DNA of 64,000 nucleotides, from assembly GCF_001005315.1 (NCBI RefSeq), contig NZ_LBMG01000031.1:1-64000 (forward strand). The letters run 5' to 3'. The DNA is from Kordia jejudonensis (lineage in GTDB: Bacteria; Bacteroidota; Bacteroidia; Flavobacteriales; Flavobacteriaceae). Positions within the stretch are counted from its first letter, which is position 1. Each line of letters opens with the position of its first letter. The translations under genes were made by a program, and so were the position numbers. This document shows positions 1 through 59,667 of the stretch, in pieces. The notes below the pieces were generated by a model. It did no database searches, was not told where the DNA came from, and saw only the letters and a list, made by a program, of their open reading frames with translations.

Positions 1-407
1 ATGCCTACTCTTGCGTTTTTCGGCTTCCACGGCTGTTTTTTGGGATATACAGCTACTTGCAATACAATTATGATATTAAAAAGTGTGTTTTGTGGTTCAT
101 TGCTACTTCAAAGCGGTTCTTTATTGGTCGTCAGCCCTATTGCAACCCTTTTGAAGCGGTTCGGAACCTATTTTATGCGGTTATCTACCATTTTGAAGCG
201 GTTCCTTAAGGGGCTTACCCCCTAAACGAACCCCTTTTTTTAGGTTTGGAACCTATTATAATGATTACAGAACCGCATCAAACTTATATACAACCGCTTT
301 GTATTATTATAAGACCATTTATAACTTACAAACAACCTTAATGATGCTTTACTGAACCCAATTGCACCTTTAGGAAACCTCCTATATTTGGTCTATAACC
401 TAAAATA
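1..407. other. Non-coding, apparently decayed stretch at the window edge
   Basis: I see no credible gene here. One open frame (1-225, plus strand) has an odd, Phe/Leu/Arg-rich composition and no recognisable domain, so I do not call it. The stretch carries three copies of AAGCGGTT at about 111, 154 and 196, spaced 42-43 bp, the last two inside a longer TTGAAGCGGTTC, plus a short GGGG/CCCC hairpin near 211-222. It looks like degenerate repeat DNA. Confidence 0.4.
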
Positions 408-6416: not shown

Positions 6417-6814
6417 TTTTTTTCAAAAATTTTCTTTTAGAGTTTCAAAACACTCCCTTAAATGTTTTTTTGTAAAAAATACTAACTCTAAAAAGTAGGT
6501 TAAATAATACAGTTCTGGTTACTAGAGCATTAAAATGAATATTCTGCTCGCAAATACATGATAAAGATATCAAATTTTGAAAGAATACTAACATTTTTAT
6601 GGCAATCTACTGTTTACAAGACTTCTTTTAAAAAAGTGCAACATGATATTTATAAATACCATGCCTGCATTTATAAATGGCAGCACTAACCATTTGAAAA
6701 TGTGAATATTACGCCATTATTTAGCACTGTCGATTTGTTGCAACAATCACATAAGGCGGAATCCGAAAAGCCTAAAACAGAGTAGGAGATCAAAACTTTA
6801 TAAACTTTAATATT
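6417..6814. promoter_or_regulatory. Divergent control region between TPR-AraC regulator and peptide genes
   Basis: This AT-rich region of 398 bp has no gene. It holds a perfect 10-bp inverted repeat, TTTTAGAGTT at 6435-6444 and AACTCTAAAA at 6484-6493, close to the regulator start, and the conserved leader motif at 6755-6787 close to the peptide start. Promoters for both directions should lie here, but I cannot place a convincing TAnnTTTG box. Confidence 0.45.
6755..6787 (+). promoter_or_regulatory. Conserved 5' leader motif, copy 1 (candidate cis-acting RNA or operator)
   Basis: GGCGGAATCCGAAAAG (6755-6770) is followed, 8 nt later, by AGAGTAGGA (6779-6787), 27 bp before the peptide ATG. The same two blocks in the same order occur at 55965-56002, in front of an unrelated secreted protein. 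AGGC before and GCCT after the GAATCCGAAAA segment can pair, giving a small hairpin. Placement in the probable 5' untranslated region suggests post-transcriptional control, but a protein-binding site is not excluded. I do not recognise it as a known riboswitch. Confidence 0.5.
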
Positions 6815-7015
6815 ATGAAAAAATTAATCAAATTAACAGGAGCATTAGCAGTAGTAGCATTATTCGCAGTATCTGCAATCAACACTACAAATGCACAAGA
6901 AGTAACTATGGATGACGTAAATGTATCTACAGTAGAGAACTTAGACAACATGTTGAAAGATGAGTGGACATTTATCTCAAGAGATTTCGTATACACTGGA
7001 TCTAGCGAGCGTTAA
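6815..7015 (+). CDS. Exported 66-aa peptide, copy 1 (candidate precursor of a secreted peptide)
   Basis: A Sec-type signal peptide (MKKLIKLTG, hydrophobic core, cleavage expected after NAQ at residues 26-28) is followed by about 38 residues, acidic at the start and ending WTFISRDFVYTGSSER. No Cys is present and no domain is recognised. It is followed 64 bp later by a near-identical second gene, then by a strong hairpin and by an HTTM-domain protein with its partner. That arrangement suggests a highly expressed precursor acted on by the downstream membrane proteins, as SdpC is by SdpA and SdpB in Bacillus. Function (toxin, signal or structural peptide) is not shown by the sequence. Confidence 0.75.
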   Translation: MKKLIKLTGALAVVALFAVSAINTTNAQEVTMDDVNVSTVENLDNMLKDEWTFISRDFVYTGSSER

Positions 7016-7079
7016 TCAACACACAATATCACATTAGTAATCAAATTAGTATTTAACCAAAATTTTAAAACACATTATT

Positions 7080-7280
7080 ATGAAAAAATTAATCAAATTA
7101 ACAGGAGCATTAGCAGTAGTAGCATTATTCGCAGTATCTGCAATCAACACTACAAATGCACAAGAAGTAACTATGGATGACGTAAATGTATCTACAGTAG
7201 AGAACTTAGACAACATGTTGAAAGATTCATGGACATTTATCTCTAGAGATTACGTTTATACTGGAACTTCAGAAAGATAG
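7080..7280 (+). CDS. Exported 66-aa peptide, copy 2
   Basis: The first 147 nucleotides (49 codons) are identical to the gene at 6815, including every synonymous position. The last 17 codons plus stop then differ at 15 of 54 positions. Amino-acid changes are only Glu50Ser, Phe58Tyr and Ser63Thr, so the C-terminal motif WTFISRD(F/Y)VYTG(S/T)SER is conserved under purifying selection while its DNA has diverged. The identical part covers the signal peptide and first half of the mature peptide, as expected from recent gene conversion. Both copies are probably on one transcript ending at the hairpin at 7292-7331, with some read-through into the next genes. Confidence 0.75.
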   Translation: MKKLIKLTGALAVVALFAVSAINTTNAQEVTMDDVNVSTVENLDNMLKDSWTFISRDYVYTGTSER

Positions 7281-7291
7281 ACTTCTCAGAA

Positions 7292-7331
7292 TTGAAAAAG
7301 AAAAGACCACTTTTCGGTCTTTTCTTTTCAA
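7292..7331 (+). terminator. Strong hairpin after the duplicated peptide genes (terminator or attenuator)
   Basis: TTGAAAAAGAAAAGACC pairs with GGTCTTTTCTTTTCAA (one bulged base) around an ACTTTTC loop. It stands between the peptide genes and the membrane-protein pair, where partial termination would keep peptide transcripts in excess over enzyme transcripts. Confidence 0.7.
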
Positions 7332-7374
7332 TCTTAACTCAAGCATTTTCAATCCAATAAAAAAATATATAATC

Positions 7375-7968
7375 ATGAAAACAACCAAAAAAATATTACT
7401 CGGATATCTTGCCGTTCATTTATTGTTTATGTTGATTATAGGATTTGCAAGCTTTACTTCATTTCAAGATGACGAATCACAAGCCAAACTAAATCCTGTT
7501 GGAAAATTCATCGCAAACAAAGCATCACTGTTTGAAACACCGAAACCGGTTACTGATTTTATATTCTTTTATGCAAAATACACAGGAACCAATAGAGGAT
7601 ATTCATTCTTTTCTCCAAATATTTCACCAATTAAAGTAAGCATGCGATTTATGGCTGATGGCGAAGAAATTCATCTTCCATTTAAGTCTCCAGAATCTTT
7701 CTTAAAGTTCAGATCGGCAAACTTACATTTCAATTCAAACATCTTTGATGTAGAAGAACGAGAAGTTATACTGAAATCAATTTCATCTTCCTTATTCTCA
7801 GATCATCAAGATATAGACAAAATAGACATTTACTTAGATTTATATCGTTTCAACACACTCGAAAGTGCAGCAACCGATGGACATCAAGTGATGTATAAAG
7901 AAATTTTAGGATTTTCTACCACAAAAAACAAGGAAGTTGCTATGCAAACCAATTCCTTTAAAAACTAA
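7375..7968 (+). CDS. Membrane-anchored partner of HTTM protein (SdpA-like position)
   Basis: This 197-residue protein has one N-terminal membrane segment (about 9-28) and a soluble remainder, presumably outside the cytoplasmic membrane. The stretch YTGTNRGYSFFSPNIS near residues 62-77 is its most distinctive part and recalls the aromatic FF motif (GFF) of SdpA-type proteins, though I cannot prove homology. It ends 5 bp before the HTTM gene, so the two are surely co-expressed. In the Bacillus sdp system, SdpA and the HTTM-like SdpB are both needed to mature the exported peptide; here the same pair follows two exported peptide genes. Function is inferred from this context only. Confidence 0.6.
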   Translation: MKTTKKILLGYLAVHLLFMLIIGFASFTSFQDDESQAKLNPVGKFIANKASLFETPKPVTDFIFFYAKYTGTNRGYSFFSPNISPIKVSMRFMADGEEIHLPFKSPESFLKFRSANLHFNSNIFDVEEREVILKSISSSLFSDHQDIDKIDIYLDLYRFNTLESAATDGHQVMYKEILGFSTTKNKEVAMQTNSFKN

Positions 7969-7973
7969 ACACC

Positions 7974-8882
7974 ATGAAAACTTTAGACACTTTTATCTTT
8001 GGAAAATCTGCCAGCGTTAAAAAAGACATCGCTATCAAAATGATTGCTGTATTCGCTGTTGTCAATGTACTCGTAATTTTACCAGATTTATTCTATATTT
8101 TTGGAGAACAAAGATTACTGCAAGAAGCTGTAAATGAGCGTTATGTATTTTGGTATCAACCTGTATTAGGTTGGTTTTCAGATATCTTTTCATACATTGG
8201 ATTTACAGAAAATATGACTTTCTTATTCTTTTTATTCGTATATGGAATTAGCTTGTTTTGTTTATGGAGAAACTACAAAAGACCACTTTTTGCTGTCATA
8301 GCTTGGTTTATCCACTTCATGTTTGTAAACTCAACATACTTATTTTCGTATGGAGCAGATTACTTCGTTTCATTCATGCTATTCATAAACATTTTAATAT
8401 GTGCAGGATATCTATTTAATAAAGAAGCTCGCAAGCCACTATACAGTTACGTGATCCGATTTTTACAACTACATTTATGCTTGGTATATTTCTTTGCAGG
8501 AATAGGAAAAGCATTAGGAACCGATTGGTTAGATGGAAATGCCATTTGGATGGTTATCAACACGTACACATCTAGTAGTGTGGTGGAAAGCTCTATAGGA
8601 TTGGCAGCGTATCCAATAATTTTCAAACTATTAGCTTGGGGAACTGTGGCTTTAGAACTATGTCATCCTGTGTTAATATACATGAAGAAAACCAGAAAAG
8701 TGACACTTGTACTTGTCATTATGTTACATGCCGGAATTGGAATATTCATGCAATTTTACACGTTCGCAGTCGTAATGATTTTACTAAACCTAATTGCTTT
8801 TGGACACTATTTCAACTGGAAATCAGTACTTAGCAAAGAAGAAGAAACAACCAATTTAGCATTGGAAACGGCAGTAGCCTAA
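7974..8882 (+). CDS. HTTM-domain multipass membrane protein (SdpB / gamma-carboxylase-like)
   Basis: A 302-residue protein with about eight to nine predicted membrane segments. RFLQLHLCLVYFFAGIGKAL followed by GTDWLDGNAIW is the hallmark of the HTTM (horizontally transferred transmembrane) domain, shared with vitamin K-dependent gamma-glutamyl carboxylases and with bacterial SdpB. It lacks the long lumenal C-terminal part of true carboxylases, so carboxylase activity should not be assumed. The gene sits 5 bp after its probable partner and downstream of the duplicated exported peptides, with a DCC-type oxidoreductase, another frequent HTTM companion, at the end of the locus. Likely role: maturation of the exported peptide. 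Confidence 0.8.
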   Translation: MKTLDTFIFGKSASVKKDIAIKMIAVFAVVNVLVILPDLFYIFGEQRLLQEAVNERYVFWYQPVLGWFSDIFSYIGFTENMTFLFFLFVYGISLFCLWRNYKRPLFAVIAWFIHFMFVNSTYLFSYGADYFVSFMLFINILICAGYLFNKEARKPLYSYVIRFLQLHLCLVYFFAGIGKALGTDWLDGNAIWMVINTYTSSSVVESSIGLAAYPIIFKLLAWGTVALELCHPVLIYMKKTRKVTLVLVIMLHAGIGIFMQFYTFAVVMILLNLIAFGHYFNWKSVLSKEEETTNLALETAVA

Positions 8883-26552: not shown

Positions 26553-26640
26553 CAATTTCTAGCCCTGATTGCAGTGGCATCCTCCCGATTTTCTCGGGAG
26601 ATACAACGGAAAGCAGGAAATAGCTCCAAATCATTTACAG

Positions 26641-53147: not shown

Positions 53148-54365
53148 TTAGCTTATCATTAAACATTCATCCCAATTTGTATCGTAATCTGCCAAGTAGT
53201 CTAGGATTGAGAGTCCAATACCTGCAATTCCTTCAAGTAATGAAGTTTCAGGTTCCCAACTCTTATCAACACCTTTCCACTGTTTGTAACCAGCGTAACC
53301 GTCTTCATGAATTGCTCTATCGATTCCGTCTTGAATCCAAAATTCGAAAGCATCTTTGAAAACTTGATCGCCAGTTTCTTTGTACATTCTTAAGAACATT
53401 TGCGCATTTCCGTAAGAACCGTGGCATAATCCAGCATCTCTTACCATGCTATCTTCTTGCGCAGTACGAGCAGCAGAATGTTTTAAAACTTCTAATGCCA
53501 TATCTCCAAGTTCTTTGTCGTTTAAGGTTTTTGAAGCATACCAAAAACGCATCGCTACACCCAAATCTCCGTAACACCAAGCCAATCGACTTTGTCCATT
53601 TTGATCTTCTTCTTTACCAGTAATCCAACTTGGGAATATTGAGAACGGATCTTCTTCTTCAGTTTTATGGCTTTTAATATAATTGATTGCTCCTTTGAGC
53701 ATTGGTTCGGCTCTTTCTTTGAAAGCTTCATTTTCATGAAATTTTGTCAAAATCCCTACAATACTCGACATTCCGTGAGATAAACTTAAGTTGTATCCGC
53801 GTTCTTTGGTTTCGATGCTCAATTCAGATTCCCACTTCAGCATGTCGTCCCCTTCTTTTTCTGATAAACCTTCCAACAAGTCCATAAATTCATTGATGAA
53901 ACCTTTGTATTTTTCTTTCAATTCATCCGATTTGGTATTTCGGTAACGATTTAGGAAGTAAAATGCATATCCAATAGCACCGTGAAGGAAATCGTAGTTT
54001 CCATTTTTCATATCGGTAACCATGAATGTGTGTATATACTGATCTAATTCTGGAAGTAAATCATCATTGTCAGCATCCATAAATTCTTCTTGCTCTAAGT
54101 GATCTAACACCCAACCTGCACCAGCAATACCAGTACAAAAAGTTGGATAGCTATATCCTTCATTGATTTTATCAATACAATCTGTAAGCATTTCTACACC
54201 AACATCAGCATGATCGTCAATGTCAAGATATTTAGAATAGTAAAACTCAAATAATGAGATGCCCGCAAGTCCAGCAAGTACTCCTATTTGTGTTTCTTCT
54301 GCACGTTTTGATTTAATAATTCGGTCAATTTCTTTTAACTTTTTTTCTAATAGCTCTTTATTCAT
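53148..54365 (-). CDS. lanC: Lanthionine synthetase C-like cyclase
   Basis: At 405 residues, this is a LanC zinc enzyme that adds Cys thiols to dehydrated residues to close lanthionine rings. Zinc ligands are visible: Cys264 in WCYGDLG, Cys314 and His315 in GLCHGSYGN; His198 in LSLSHGMSS is the other conserved family His. GxxG-type barrel repeats (GLAGISLFE, GIAGAGWVL, GAIGYAFYF, GDLGVAMRF, GIAGIGLSIL) mark the toroid fold. It is first in the minus-strand lanC-lanB-spaB_C operon. Enzymes of this type in Bacteroidota accompany Gly-Gly-leader precursors like those at 46913-47506. Confidence 0.95.
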   Translation of the reverse strand: MNKELLEKKLKEIDRIIKSKRAEETQIGVLAGLAGISLFEFYYSKYLDIDDHADVGVEMLTDCIDKINEGYSYPTFCTGIAGAGWVLDHLEQEEFMDADNDDLLPELDQYIHTFMVTDMKNGNYDFLHGAIGYAFYFLNRYRNTKSDELKEKYKGFINEFMDLLEGLSEKEGDDMLKWESELSIETKERGYNLSLSHGMSSIVGILTKFHENEAFKERAEPMLKGAINYIKSHKTEEEDPFSIFPSWITGKEEDQNGQSRLAWCYGDLGVAMRFWYASKTLNDKELGDMALEVLKHSAARTAQEDSMVRDAGLCHGSYGNAQMFLRMYKETGDQVFKDAFEFWIQDGIDRAIHEDGYAGYKQWKGVDKSWEPETSLLEGIAGIGLSILDYLADYDTNWDECLMIS

Positions 54366-54503: not shown

Positions 54504-55310
54504 TTATTTTAACTTTTTGAGCAGTACTTTTGCTTTTTCAGAATTGTAAAAGTTAGGATGTTGCGCTAGCGTCTGTAGCGTATTTTTTGCTTTTTCTGTA
54601 TTTTCTTGTTTTAAATGTACAAGCGCTATATACCAATATGCTTTGTGATGATCAATGGCATCACTGTTTTTTAACACATTAAATGTTTTTAAAGCTTCTG
54701 TGTATTCTTCAAGTTCTAATTGCGAAACTCCAATATACAAAGCTACATTAGGATTGTAGATTTCACCTTTTGTATAGGATTTGAATAGAGAAAGTGCTTC
54801 AGAATACTTTTCGTTTTTAAACAAGTTACGTGCTTGTTCTAAACTCGTAGTGGTATCGCTTTTGGTTTGAAACGCAGGAAGTGTGCTCCAATCATGATAT
54901 TGATCAAAAGCGTCAGTTGCAGTGAGCGATTGCATAAAAGAAAAATAAAACAACGTAAACACGGCAGCTATTGCAACTGCTGTAGAAATATAATAGAAAT
55001 AGGTTTTCTTTTTGGATGATTTTTTTGGATGATTCTCTTGTTGAATGGCGCGTATTTTTTTGGATATATTTGCCACATCATCAGCTCTAAATGCTTGTGC
55101 AAGCTCTTTAATTTCTGTTGCGGATGCTGTAGTGGTTATTGTCCATTTCTCATCATTATACACACCTTCTAATGTGCTATAAGTTTCTAAAAAAGAGGCT
55201 AAATCGGCATCACTTTCTAAGCGTGCTTCAAAATCTTTTTTTGCGGTGTCATCCATTTGATTGTTCAAATAAGATGCAATTTGGGCATAAGTTTGATCGT
55301 CAAAACTCAT
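54504..55310 (-). CDS. Putative anti-sigma factor with TPR domain
   Basis: The 268-residue protein has a cytoplasmic N-terminus with anti-sigma-like features (YAQIASYLNNQMDDTAKKDF, as in zinc-finger-less anti-sigma proteins), a basic stretch, one membrane helix (about 104-124) and a C-terminal TPR domain (about 160-265; ARNLFKNEKYSEALSLFKSY). Its start overlaps the sigma gene stop by 4 bp, the usual arrangement for a sigma/anti-sigma pair. The TPR part would face the periplasm and could sense an envelope or secreted partner, for instance products of the divergent genes at 56029 and 59776. Confidence 0.75.
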   Translation of the reverse strand: MSFDDQTYAQIASYLNNQMDDTAKKDFEARLESDADLASFLETYSTLEGVYNDEKWTITTTASATEIKELAQAFRADDVANISKKIRAIQQENHPKKSSKKKTYFYYISTAVAIAAVFTLFYFSFMQSLTATDAFDQYHDWSTLPAFQTKSDTTTSLEQARNLFKNEKYSEALSLFKSYTKGEIYNPNVALYIGVSQLELEEYTEALKTFNVLKNSDAIDHHKAYWYIALVHLKQENTEKAKNTLQTLAQHPNFYNSEKAKVLLKKLK

Positions 55311-55864
55311 AATTTCTTTATTTTAGAAAACGAATCGTCTTCCTTTATTAGCTTGGTTAATTTTGCTTTGCATTTAAAAACACGTTGTCTAGCTACTACT
55401 TTCGATGCGTATGAAAATGTTTTTACAATTTCGTCATACGAAGTACCATTAAACAACAATGTCAATACTTTTCTACAATTTTCTGAGAGCAATTGAAACT
55501 TTTCAATATACAGCTCCCATTTTTCTTGTTCAAGTAATGCATGGGCATTTTCTACTTCTTCACTTTTCAGTTCAGTAACCTTCATTTTTGTTACCCGTTT
55601 TTTATTTAATTCTCTTCTCCAAAGATTTTTACAGGTGGTAAAAAGGTACGCTTCAAACGAAGATTTAATAACTAATTGTCTTTTTTTTAGGCGAACAAAT
55701 AATTGAATCAATGCATTATGAAAAATATCTTCTGCATCGGTAGCATTGCCTTTATTTTGAATCACAAAGGTTTTTACTTTTGAAAAAAATGTGGTATAAA
55801 TTTCTTCTAATATTGTTTCGTCTCCAGAACGTAATCCTTCAATAAAATAAGTATCATTTGACAT
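55307..55864 (-). CDS. RNA polymerase ECF-type sigma-70 factor
   Basis: This 185-residue sigma factor (start taken at the second Met, 55864; 55879 adds five residues) has region 2 (GDETILEEIYTTFFSKVKTF, ATDAEDIFHNALIQLFVRL, SSFEAYLFTTCKNLWRRELN) and region 4 (LLSENCRKVLTLLFNGTSYD, EIVKTFSYASKVVARQRVFK). It should direct transcription of a regulon that may include the divergent secreted-protein genes. It overlaps the putative anti-sigma gene by 4 bp. The intergenic region to 56029 is 164 bp and contains the conserved leader motif copy 2. Confidence 0.92.
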   Translation of the reverse strand: MSNDTYFIEGLRSGDETILEEIYTTFFSKVKTFVIQNKGNATDAEDIFHNALIQLFVRLKKRQLVIKSSFEAYLFTTCKNLWRRELNKKRVTKMKVTELKSEEVENAHALLEQEKWELYIEKFQLLSENCRKVLTLLFNGTSYDEIVKTFSYASKVVARQRVFKCKAKLTKLIKEDDSFSKIKKL

Positions 55865-55964
55865 AAAAATAGGGTTCACTATAAGCTTTCCTAAAATTAA
55901 TGAAATAAATCGGGTAACAAAATTTCTTACGCCTAACTATATGATAGTCGACTTATTTTATGAG

Positions 55965-56002
55965 GCGGAATCCGAAAAGCCTTTAACCATAATAGAGTAG
56001 GA
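55965..56002 (+). promoter_or_regulatory. Conserved 5' leader motif, copy 2
   Basis: GGCGGAATCCGAAAAG at 55965-55980 and, 13 nt later, AGAGTAGGA at 55994-56002 repeat both blocks of the element at 6755-6787 in the same order and orientation. It lies 27 bp before the ATG of the 1212-aa secreted protein, again a likely 5' leader position. Spacing between the blocks differs (8 versus 13 nt), and flanking sequence is unrelated, so conservation is specific to the two blocks. Confidence 0.5.
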
Positions 56003-56028
56003 ACTAACCAAACTAACATATTTTAAGC

Positions 56029-59000
56029 ATGAAAAAAGTTATTTTAAGTATGTTTTGTATACTCATGATGAGTTCTTTTTGCCAAATAAGAGCCCAAGCA
56101 CGAGTTGACAATTCTACGAAACAGCAACAAATGTTGCAAGAAGAAAAAAAAGTAGATGCTTACATAAAGGAGAATCTACGAAAATCACTGCCAAGTGATA
56201 TAAAACAACAATTTATAGAGGGCTTTAATAACTCTGAACGCGAAATAAAGTATAACCAACTTTCAAGTAGTGAGCAAAAAGCTGAATTACAATCTTTTAA
56301 ACAAGGATACTTACGTTATAAGTATTTTAGTGAAAAACCAGGAGCTTGGGTTCCATATCAAGCAGAAGCAGTTCCAACATGTGTAAACGGAAGTTTTGAA
56401 GATGGAAACTTTAACAACTATCAAGGAAATACAGCTTTTGGAAGTCCAGGAGGCTACACATCAGGGGAATGTGGAGCAATTCCAACTACAGGATTTGGAA
56501 ACTTTACTTGGACTCCAAATAATTTATTTACAACAAGTGTAGATAACTTTGATATTGTAGGCGCAGGAAATGATCCTATTGTAGCAGCTGGCGGACAAAC
56601 GTTAAGCATGATAAATCCCAACAGTCCTACTATGGGAAATCAATTTGCAGCTAGAATCAACGGTCCAAAACCTATGGTAAACCCTACGAATGATACTTAT
56701 GGAAGGTGTTGGCCAGATTGGGGAATTAATAGATTAACAAAACCAATAACACTTACAGAAAGTGGTATCCAAACGGTTCGTTTTTACTATGCATTGGTTG
56801 CTGAATTTCCAGATCATAACAATGGGAATCCAATTTTTGTAGCTAGAGCTTTAGATGGAAACGATACTGAATTGGATAGAGTTTGTGTTATTTCAAATCC
56901 AGCAGGAAACCCTTTCTTTAATGAATTAAATGGTATTGTAAATGATGGTTGTGGATTATCAACTGTTTTATGGCAAAACTGGACATGTGCTGAATTAAAA
57001 ATCTCTGGAGAAGTAGGGGATGTTATTAATTTAGAATTCATAGCAGCAGACTGTGGAGCAGGTGGACATTTTGGATATGCATATGTAGATGATATTTGTG
57101 CTGATGAATGTGTGCCAGGATCAGATTTTCAAGGAAGTATTCGTTTAAATGAATTTGATCCGTGTGAAGTTGACTTTCCTTTTGATGTATGTGCAGATTT
57201 TACCTTACCACAATTAAACGGAGAAACAGGAACACTTACCGCAAATAATACCTCTTTAGATATTGTACAAAACGGACAGGTTGTAAACACGTTAACAAAT
57301 GGAGTAATTACAGGAAATACAGTATGTTTTTCAGTTACAGCTGGAGATTTTCCATCGCAAACTGGAGGTTATGATTTTCAAGTAAACGCTACATTTGGTA
57401 TTGCTGGAGAAACACAAGGTTCAGATGATGTACATACAATTCCAGGACAAAACAACGATTACATTTTTAACAATCCTGACTGTTGTGATATTGATGCTGT
57501 AATATCAGATATTATTTGTGACGATCAAGGAACTACAGATCCAAGTGATGATACATGGTCTTTTGTATTAAATGTAACCAACTCTTCGGGTACTTTTTGG
57601 AGAGCAACTACGCCAGATAGTGATGCAGGACCTTACAATGATCCTAAAACCATTTACATGGGATTAATCTCAGATTACACTAACGGAATAGCAAACTTTG
57701 TAGTATTTGATGATGGAGACAATGATTGTCATACAGACGTTACAATTCAAGTGCCAGAAGCATGCTCACCACCTTGTGACTTAGATTACGCAGTAACAAT
57801 AGGAGAATGTGATGACAATGGTACACCATCCGATTATTCAGATGATTTCTATCACGTTACAATTACTGTTACAGGAACAAACGGATTGCCTTGGATGGCA
57901 AAACAAAAGCTTGAAAGCGATGGTTCTGAAACGGTAATTTATAGTGGTACTACTAATGTTGTCGACTTACAATTAGGACCTTTTGATGTCAGTGATGGCG
58001 ATTGGACATTATGGATTGGTCTTACCGATTATTTCGACTGTTTAAAAGATGTATACATCGAAGTACCTAAATGTTGTAATGATGAACCATATATTATTCC
58101 ATATTGGCAACATCCTAGTTGTCCAGAAGTAGTTTGTACTGCTGATCAATGGCCAGTTCATGTATTAAGTAGTGACGGAAGTACCATTTCAAATGGAAAC
58201 GGAATTACCATTGTTTGGGATAACTTAGATACACCTCAAGATGAAAACGATATTCAAGATTGGATTTTCGTTTCAGCAGAAGAAAACTGGCAAGCAACAA
58301 TTACATATCCAAACGGATGTCAATACATTGTTACATATTATGAAGACTGTTGTGATGAAGATATTTTTATTAAAGTATACGAATGTCCATCTATTCCTCA
58401 GTTACAAGCATACCAAACTGCACTTGAAAAAGCAATGGAAGCTGCATCAGCAAGTCAATCTCTTGAAAAAAGTAGCGCACAAAATGCACAACAAGCACAA
58501 ATTCAAACGGAGTTAGACAGACTAAGAGTCTACAGAGAACTTCGTGCTAGCAGTGATGATGGTGAATGCGAGCCGTGTGAAATAGGATTCATATTCATAG
58601 AGTTGGTAGACGCAAATGGCGATTCAATAGATATCGATGATTACGACTCATTTAGTTGGAATAATGGATCAATGGCAACAAATGTTTTAGTTGACTTGCC
58701 AATGGATGATGGTCCAATTTGTTTCACTGCCACAAAAATTGAATATGGTAAAGAATGTGTATATCAAGATTGTTTCTTCTACGAATGTGAAAAAGAATGT
58801 TTATGTGACGAATTAACACTTGGAGACTTAAATATATTTGAAGTAACTGACGACTGTTTATACTCAATATCAGCGAGTTCAATTGTTAACTGTTCTTCTG
58901 ATCAAATTGCTGATGAAGAATATAGTTTCACAATAAACAATGGAACACCAATTACATCTTCAGGAAACGGAATTTACTATACATTCCCAGGTAATGGAAT

Positions 59001-59667
59001 ATATGACATTACGATGACATGGACGGTAACCGATATTGAAGGATGTGAAACTACAGTATCTACTTCTAAATCAGTAGAAATCAAATGTGAAGAAAGACCA
59101 TGTGATGTGGCTACAGACTTACGATTCGATTGTAGAAGAGCAGGAATGAGCTGGATAGGTGATCCTAACCAAACGTATATTGTTCAGGTAAATTGGGATG
59201 CATGTTGTGAACCTTTACGTCCGCCATCATCACAAGTATCTAATCAATGGGAAGTTATAGGAACTTCAACACAATTGCCTTTCATTAGAGAATCTAACTG
59301 TTTCAGCTGGAAAGTTGGAGTGAAGTGTGAAGATCAGATTTTATGGTCTGAAGCAGATTGTGTAACTTGTTATGGTCCTACCAAACCACATGACGCAGCA
59401 GTGGATGTGAAAACTTCAGCGAAGATTTCGCCAAATCCAAATGACGGTAATATGAATATCGAAATATCAGGAAGCGACAAAACTAACTTTACAATTAAAG
59501 TATATCGTTTTGATGGAATCCTAATCAAATCTTTCGATAATAATCGTATAGAAAATCAAAATACCACCATCTCTTGGAATGGAAAATCAGTATTGTCACC
59601 AGGAATGTACTTCTTCGTGATTACGACCGATTCAGAAACCATTACTAAGAAAGTTATTATAGAATAA
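56029..59667 (+). CDS. 1212-residue Cys-rich T9SS-secreted surface protein
   Basis: Signal peptide to about residue 23 (ending RAQA), a helical Gln/Lys-rich region to about 110, a jelly-roll domain (about 120-360; FEDGNFNNYQGNTAFGSPGG through FGYAYVDDICADECVPG), then several Ig/PKD-like modules with paired Cys (many CC or CxxC: DCCD, CCND, CCDE, ECEPCE), a short Ala/Gln-rich helical insert (about 793-845) and a T9SS type A sorting domain (ISPNPNDGNMNIEI to the end, TITKKVIIE). It is probably exposed at or released from the surface; adhesin, stalk or substrate roles are possible. It is divergent from a sigma/anti-sigma pair and precedes an S8 peptidase gene. Confidence 0.85.
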   Translation: MKKVILSMFCILMMSSFCQIRAQARVDNSTKQQQMLQEEKKVDAYIKENLRKSLPSDIKQQFIEGFNNSEREIKYNQLSSSEQKAELQSFKQGYLRYKYFSEKPGAWVPYQAEAVPTCVNGSFEDGNFNNYQGNTAFGSPGGYTSGECGAIPTTGFGNFTWTPNNLFTTSVDNFDIVGAGNDPIVAAGGQTLSMINPNSPTMGNQFAARINGPKPMVNPTNDTYGRCWPDWGINRLTKPITLTESGIQTVRFYYALVAEFPDHNNGNPIFVARALDGNDTELDRVCVISNPAGNPFFNELNGIVNDGCGLSTVLWQNWTCAELKISGEVGDVINLEFIAADCGAGGHFGYAYVDDICADECVPGSDFQGSIRLNEFDPCEVDFPFDVCADFTLPQLNGETGTLTANNTSLDIVQNGQVVNTLTNGVITGNTVCFSVTAGDFPSQTGGYDFQVNATFGIAGETQGSDDVHTIPGQNNDYIFNNPDCCDIDAVISDIICDDQGTTDPSDDTWSFVLNVTNSSGTFWRATTPDSDAGPYNDPKTIYMGLISDYTNGIANFVVFDDGDNDCHTDVTIQVPEACSPPCDLDYAVTIGECDDNGTPSDYSDDFYHVTITVTGTNGLPWMAKQKLESDGSETVIYSGTTNVVDLQLGPFDVSDGDWTLWIGLTDYFDCLKDVYIEVPKCCNDEPYIIPYWQHPSCPEVVCTADQWPVHVLSSDGSTISNGNGITIVWDNLDTPQDENDIQDWIFVSAEENWQATITYPNGCQYIVTYYEDCCDEDIFIKVYECPSIPQLQAYQTALEKAMEAASASQSLEKSSAQNAQQAQIQTELDRLRVYRELRASSDDGECEPCEIGFIFIELVDANGDSIDIDDYDSFSWNNGSMATNVLVDLPMDDGPICFTATKIEYGKECVYQDCFFYECEKECLCDELTLGDLNIFEVTDDCLYSISASSIVNCSSDQIADEEYSFTINNGTPITSSGNGIYYTFPGNGIYDITMTWTVTDIEGCETTVSTSKSVEIKCEERPCDVATDLRFDCRRAGMSWIGDPNQTYIVQVNWDACCEPLRPPSSQVSNQWEVIGTSTQLPFIRESNCFSWKVGVKCEDQILWSEADCVTCYGPTKPHDAAVDVKTSAKISPNPNDGNMNIEISGSDKTNFTIKVYRFDGILIKSFDNNRIENQNTTISWNGKSVLSPGMYFFVITTDSETITKKVIIE

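Follow-up and report, generated by a model that had tools for sequence, protein, structure and literature searches.

The window analysed here, a 64,000-nt stretch of Kordia jejudonensis DNA, carries a short two-block motif ahead of two genes (Table 1). The first block, GGCGGAATCCGAAAAG, was located by string search at 6755-6770 and 55964-55979, and the second, AGAGTAGGA, at 6779-6787 and 55994-56002. The motif of the original prediction is thus real, both blocks being present at both loci, although its second copy begins at 55964 rather than 55965, and the gap of 27 nt ascribed to both genes holds for the ATG at 6815 but is 26 nt for that at 56029. The surroundings, described as not conserved, do share features, in that the stem runs on to AGGC...GCCT and the sequence TTACGCC-N13-GTCGAYTT lies just upstream in both copies. 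That such a match would be very unlikely by chance is borne out for the exact 16-mer, which has five copies in the 5.36-Mb genome against none for the reversed control. With up to three mismatches allowed, only the two sites are found in the window (shuffle mean, 0.26), but this window-only test is weak because 2 of 100 shuffles also give two matches.

Profile searches of the 66-aa peptide encoded behind the first copy gave no NCBIfam or Pfam match, and the RF02914 scan reported no match ahead of its near-identical tandem neighbour. Both peptide genes cluster (6815-8882) with an SdpB-like/HTTM gene, whose TIGR04033 match of 42.8 bits is below the curated cut-off of 178.4; the cluster is possibly a sporulation-delaying-protein-like peptide system. 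Ahead of the second copy, a 405-aa LanC-like protein is encoded at 53148-54365, near an ECF sigma gene (55307-55879) and the type IX secretion system (T9SS) protein. A Flavo-1 sRNA (RF01705; 61.9 bits) is located at 26557-26624.

Table 1. Features of the 64,000-nt window (P1 and P2, helices of the DUF805b RNA)
Feature	Position	Strand	Basis
TTACGCC-N13-GTCGAYTT, possible promoter (function inferred)	6709..6736	+	pattern search
DUF805b RNA, copy 1	6753..6788	+	Rfam RF02914, 51.4 bits (cut-off 35.6)
Copy 1, P1	6754-6757 with 6770-6773	+	RF02914 hairpin
Copy 1, P2	loop strand 6762-6764 (UCC), 3' strand 6785-6787 (GGA)	+	covariation
Copy 1, conserved strands	GAAAA 6765-6769; AGAGUA 6779-6784	+	
66-aa secreted peptide gene behind copy 1	6815..7015	+	ORF list; signal-peptide-like (heuristic)
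Near-identical tandem copy of the 66-aa gene	7080..7280	+	ORF list
SdpB-like HTTM membrane protein, same cluster	7974..8882	+	TIGR04033, E 4.9e-11; HTTM PF05090
TTACGCC-N13-GTCGAYTT, second copy	55927..55954	+	pattern search
DUF805b RNA, copy 2 (linker longer)	55962..56003	+	RF02914, 42.3 bits
Copy 2, helices	P1 55963-55966 with 55979-55982; P2 55971-55973 with 56000-56002	+	
1212-aa protein with type IX secretion C-terminal signal, behind copy 2	56029..59667	+	TIGR04183, E 7.7e-11; PF18962
DUF805b RNA, third, weaker copy at contig edge (gene off contig)	2..33	-	31.1 bits (below cut-off), E 1.5e-6

Both copies belong to Rfam family RF02914, the DUF805b RNA (clan CL00115; type 'Cis-reg'; no function given), and each exceeds its gathering score. 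The two copies first described are joined by a third, sub-threshold one on the minus strand. Across the whole genome there are 38 matches at E<=0.001, 22 of which exceed the cut-off; as scoring covered 150 of the 3443 first-look candidates, 38 may be an undercount. All 11 Kordia genomes searched carry the element, at 11-50 matches each. At least one match was found in at least 176 of 299 genomes of the family and at least 118 of 395 genomes of the phylum, with copy counts that are lower bounds at both levels (up to 22 and 17 candidates scored per genome, respectively); fourteen well-known control genomes gave zero matches. For comparative work, 121 copies (119 distinct) were collected, comprising the 38 from this genome and 83 from relatives, the latter being the loci of best matches and so biased to strong scores. 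A complementary exact-pattern scan, with both outer P2 letters left free, returned at least 114 genome stretches, of which 114 were read. Of 80 titles among the matches listed, 75 were Bacteroidota and five were not; in three of these five, P1 and P2 are both broken and the matches look like chance, while the remaining two are metagenome-assembled (MAG) contigs with intact structure, which may be mis-binned. RF02913, considered as a sister DUF805 family, was ruled out, as it is pemK.

The printed RF02914 model contains a single 4-bp hairpin (P1) and no P2 pairs. P1 closes a 12-nt loop; in alignment A3, composed of the 100 of 119 distinct copies with a 12-nt loop and a total length of 32-38 nt, 93% of P1 cells are canonical and all four pairs have changed on both sides, a signal towards which model-based selection itself leans. 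Across the 119 distinct copies, a loop trinucleotide (NCC) stands opposite GGN' at the 3' end. Of the resulting P2 pairs, the outer one is canonical in 108 of 119 copies (shuffle mean, 51.2; maximum, 71), taking the forms G-C (44), U-A (43), A-U (10), C-G (5) and wobble (6), and is non-canonical in 11. The third pair has switched from C-G to U-A in six of the 119, and the middle pair is invariant throughout A3. Selection by the search model cannot explain the outer pair, since that model has no P2 pairs. The two-helix covariation score for A3 is 0.579 versus 0.145 for shuffles, and the score for P2 only is 0.402 versus 0.112, neither being reached by any of 500 shuffles; sliding the P2 partner by 1-3 columns abolishes the covariation. 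The count of further pair types for the whole A3 structure was equalled by 35 of 500 shuffles, and that of pairs with a change on both sides, for P2 alone, by 51 of 500. Within the pattern-based sets, a canonical outer P2 pair is present in 98 of 112 distinct genome copies (shuffle mean, 51.4; maximum, 68) and in 59 of 61 copies of the viral set, which holds at least 61 distinct copies (shuffle mean, 43.3; maximum, 53). The comparative sequence evidence establishes an H-type pseudoknot as the predicted fold of the DUF805b RNA, in which a P1 of 3-4 bp is interlocked with a P2 of 3 bp (NCC/GGN').

Conservation outside the helices is concentrated in two strands. GAAAA, which follows the loop side of P2, is kept in 117 of 119 distinct copies, and AGUA, which precedes the 3' side of P2, is invariant in the 100 rows of A3. 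The bulged-G (loop E, sarcin-ricin-like) module, a common surface for protein docking or tertiary contact, is recognized by GAA opposite AGUA beside a helix; the GAAAA and AGUA strands of DUF805b would probably form such a module. In the window copies, P1 on its own reaches ~-5 kcal/mol, which does not surpass shuffled sequences; of four motif copies folded in isolation, one adopts a different structure.

Placement relative to the start codon is equally regular. In 110 of 121 copies, the distance from the end of the element to an ATG-started open reading frame (ORF) of at least 30 aa is 15-26 nt, versus 148 of 2054 random points at the same loci. Among the 112 copies spaced 10-35 nt from the ATG, the spacing has a standard deviation of 2.9 nt and is uncorrelated with motif length. 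The other eleven of the 121 include seven at other distances, two at contig edges and two for which no ATG-started ORF of 30 aa occurs within 160 nt despite 1500 nt of downstream sequence. For pattern-based genome copies with intact P1, 74 of 104 lie 15-26 nt before an ORF and 30 do not. In the K. jejudonensis genome, the 3' half of the motif with the correct ATG spacing occurs 16 times, against two for the reversed control, and 14 of these 16 sites are full DUF805b copies by their coordinates. In the 80 nt that precede the element, the adjoining base is the sole conserved position (121 copies), and a fixed upstream promoter was rejected on this basis.

The 3' strand of P2 ends ~20 nt before the ATG, outside the Shine-Dalgarno position, and the spacer is G-poor. 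Relative to 36 window genes, A is more frequent in motif genes at -3 (95 of 110 versus 53%) and at -12 (91 of 110 versus 58%) and is not enriched at -6 (59 of 110 versus 69%); an A-rich stretch from -11 to -13 is frequent in motif-less window genes too. For Flavobacterium johnsoniae, A at -3, -6, -12 and -13 and low structure from -20 to +20 are reported to tune initiation, A at -6 being a positive determinant (PMC6847099), and Shine-Dalgarno pairing is blocked in that organism (PMC9976891). The 3' end of the pseudoknot lies immediately outside this -20 to +20 zone of low structure.

The element is also carried by viruses. An exact-pattern scan of IMG/VR returned at least 120 stretches, of which 80 were read, containing 82 places; P1 is intact in 78 of these. 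Among the matches listed, 65 of the 78 intact-P1 copies lie 15-26 nt before an ATG-started ORF, and 32 viral records hold one or two matches each. Copies often sit directly behind another gene: 23 of 70 among the matches listed start 0-13 nt behind a same-strand upstream stop codon (random, 66 of 2256), and these 23, with upstream ORFs of at least 45 aa, follow 19 distinct upstream C termini. For host copies, 9 of 119 lie within 20 nt behind an upstream stop (random, 24 of 1083). At C134:45157, the element follows a different motif-led peptide gene, beginning 8 nt past its stop codon. Of 66 viral targets among the matches listed, 11 match a ParB-like PHROG family and 11 a DNA-methyltransferase one; from their length and sequence, the two groups appear to be largely the same proteins. 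Pfam searches gave single matches to HU, N6_N4_Mtase and Acb2/Tad1, with most viral targets lacking a match. Of ten large proteins, one from each of ten of these viral contigs, five match portal, head or virion structural families, one a DnaB-like helicase, three GroEL and one a family without assigned function. When three viral target proteins were compared with 50,697 phage records, one had a weak match to a Streptococcus phage and the other two had none, so that the viral evidence rests on IMG/VR contigs and not on named phage isolates.

Cellular targets are diverse. In the K. jejudonensis genome they include class I lanthipeptide-like leaders, a putative bacteriocin, DUF2589, DUF1842, a PixA-like protein, an M12 metallopeptidase and a RidA-like lipoprotein, and in other genomes rhodopsin, DUF805, DUF6520 and subtilase. 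DUF805 itself (PF05656) accounts for none of 36 targets in this genome and for 1 of 81 and 2 of 79 elsewhere, and neither window copy has a DUF805 gene behind it (ORF list, NCBIfam, Pfam); a downstream DUF805 gene is a namesake of the RNA and not its defining feature. In a set of 20 stretches hand-picked partly for similar match length (19 from one-match genomes and one from a two-match genome), 13 lead to a single secreted family of 210-259 aa with a DFNT motif, whose K. jejudonensis member has no Pfam or NCBIfam match. In four genomes the DFNT-family target lies within two genes of a gene with a CxxC zinc-ribbon-like N terminus (adjacent in three), and in three of those four it stands beside a paralogue.

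The original prediction had the motif governing exported products. Export signals are indeed common in cellular targets: by a crude heuristic, signal-peptide-like and double-glycine-like proteins make up 26 of 35 targets in this genome (11 + 15; ~12 of the latter 15 look correct on inspection) and, for the pattern-based genome set, 53 of 79 (41 + 12), versus 23 of 50 window ORFs (20 + 3), a thin background drawn from one window. Double-glycine peptides are the clearest excess among cellular targets. As a unifying rule, however, an exported-product regulon was rejected, as only 9 of 66 viral targets are signal-peptide-like or double-glycine-like and 57 of 66 show neither signal. A RiPP-leader regulon was likewise rejected: among the best 30 of 128 NF038153 loci, one carries the element and one a degenerate form (by eye). 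The NF038153 (RiPP-like leader) profile itself has 128 loose matches in the genome at E<=1, with 27 exceeding the cut-off.

The pattern TTACGCC-N13-GTCGAYTT, derived post hoc from its two window copies, has two genome matches at up to one mismatch, each upstream of a window DUF805b copy; a shared ECF-type promoter is possible, given the nearby ECF sigma gene. A further sequence, GGTAACAAAA, occurs 48-49 nt ahead of 3 of the 38 genome copies, among them the window copy at 55962, and is possibly a common promoter box.

In sum, the reading of the motif as a cis-acting RNA at gene starts is supported by the RF02914 match, two covarying helices, fixed ATG spacing and 38 matches in the genome. We infer, with a probability of roughly 70%, that the DUF805b pseudoknot acts in cis on translation initiation of its one downstream gene. 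Translation of the element's own gene is the best explanation because copies recur on single genes, some of them within gene strings, and keep a constant distance to the AUG but not to any upstream landmark. Such placement, close to the start codon and gene by gene, speaks for a translation-initiation element rather than one belonging to promoters or operon heads. A site acting at the DNA level, as a promoter or transcription-factor box, would fit the promoter-like boxes upstream of some copies (one box at 2 of 38, another at 3 of 38), but interlocked covarying helices, a fixed ATG distance, the lack of upstream positional conservation over 80 nt bar the adjoining base, and copies directly behind an upstream gene's stop codon make this reading highly improbable. 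An element for processive antitermination or for mRNA 5'-end stability at operon heads would suit the few copies per phage record; as neither would require fixed ATG spacing or copies within gene strings before their own gene, we consider it quite improbable. The proposal of a small RNA acting in trans on the motif, part of the original prediction, is slightly more doubtful still: conserved unpaired strands could serve as seed targets, and the window itself encodes a Flavo-1 sRNA, but the P1 arms, like the outer P2 pair, are free to change as long as both strands change together, such that conservation there follows structure and not a fixed antisense partner.

If the pseudoknot acts on initiation, the folded element would sit at the upstream edge of the 30S-covered region. 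There, it might itself help ribosome loading in a phylum almost without Shine-Dalgarno use, or it might serve as a platform where a trans factor (a protein, ribosomal protein or ligand) switches loading. We lean slightly towards an activating role, on the phage-economy argument that phages keep copies on single genes within compact gene strings. Bacteroidota ribosomes hide their anti-Shine-Dalgarno tail. A bolder and rather unlikely version of the initiation reading would make DUF805b a portable ribosome-loading pseudoknot, i.e., a Shine-Dalgarno replacement read by the 30S platform and carried by phages for the translation of chosen genes. Tentatively more plausible, though still short of an even chance, is that the element is bound by a global RNA-binding protein, a translational regulator that phages would exploit or counter as well. 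The near-invariant, non-helical GAAAA and AGUA strands resemble a recognition surface, and dozens of targets are scattered through one genome; this proposal overlaps with initiation control in cis, the partner being the sole difference. Alternatively, a metabolite or second messenger could open or close the ribosome landing site through a riboswitch of preQ1-I size. The ~35-nt length, H-type topology and weak fold when alone would fit, and many copies could respond to one signalling molecule. We regard a riboswitch as unlikely, as RiPP-like peptides, T9SS proteins, proteases, rhodopsin and ParB-like phage proteins have no evident common pathway, P2 falls short of the Shine-Dalgarno position, and DUF805b is the only Rfam family at the window sites at gathering level, with no preQ1 match there.

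Ultimately, it is an open question how start codons are selected and tuned in Bacteroidota when Shine-Dalgarno pairing plays no part, and a compact, widespread, phage-carried and easily mutated pseudoknot at the edge of the initiation region offers a test handle. A translational role would also assign a function to RF02914, for which none was found: our search of the available literature returned no description of DUF805b or DUF805 RNA function. Within that literature, RF02914 is named once, in a machine-learning paper, and the available sections of PMC8040213 and PMC7366714 contain no mention of DUF805 or 'DUF'. The RF02914 family and its 'Cis-reg' type are known already; novelty may lie in the pseudoknot, the viral spread and the per-gene placement. 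The element described here agrees with RF02914 in sequence, P1 hairpin, 'Cis-reg' type and place upstream of genes, whereas the Rfam model holds the 4-bp hairpin only, to which the P2 pseudoknot, viral copies and fixed AUG spacing are now added.

Among characterized systems, preQ1-I riboswitches and their kin are small H-type pseudoknot translational switches of ~35 nt that lie just before the start codon. DUF805b resembles them in its ~35-nt size, interlocked P1 and P2, and position; in contrast, its P2 does not overlap a Shine-Dalgarno sequence, and it occurs in dozens of copies per genome on unrelated targets. The pseudoknot of the E. coli rpsO mRNA, bound by S15, is a structured translational operator that docks on the 30S platform. 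It likewise lies just upstream of the initiation region, with a possible effect on 30S loading in common, but it regulates one autoregulated ribosomal protein gene, as opposed to the many unrelated targets of DUF805b. PMC9976891 describes autoregulation of Flavobacterium bS21/rpsU through an extended Shine-Dalgarno sequence that pairs with 16S rRNA on one gene. The two share a start-proximal mRNA feature that sets initiation (for DUF805b, by our reading) in a group whose anti-Shine-Dalgarno tail is sequestered (PMC9976891); they differ in that rpsU relies on 16S pairing at a single gene, whereas DUF805b would place a folded element before many.
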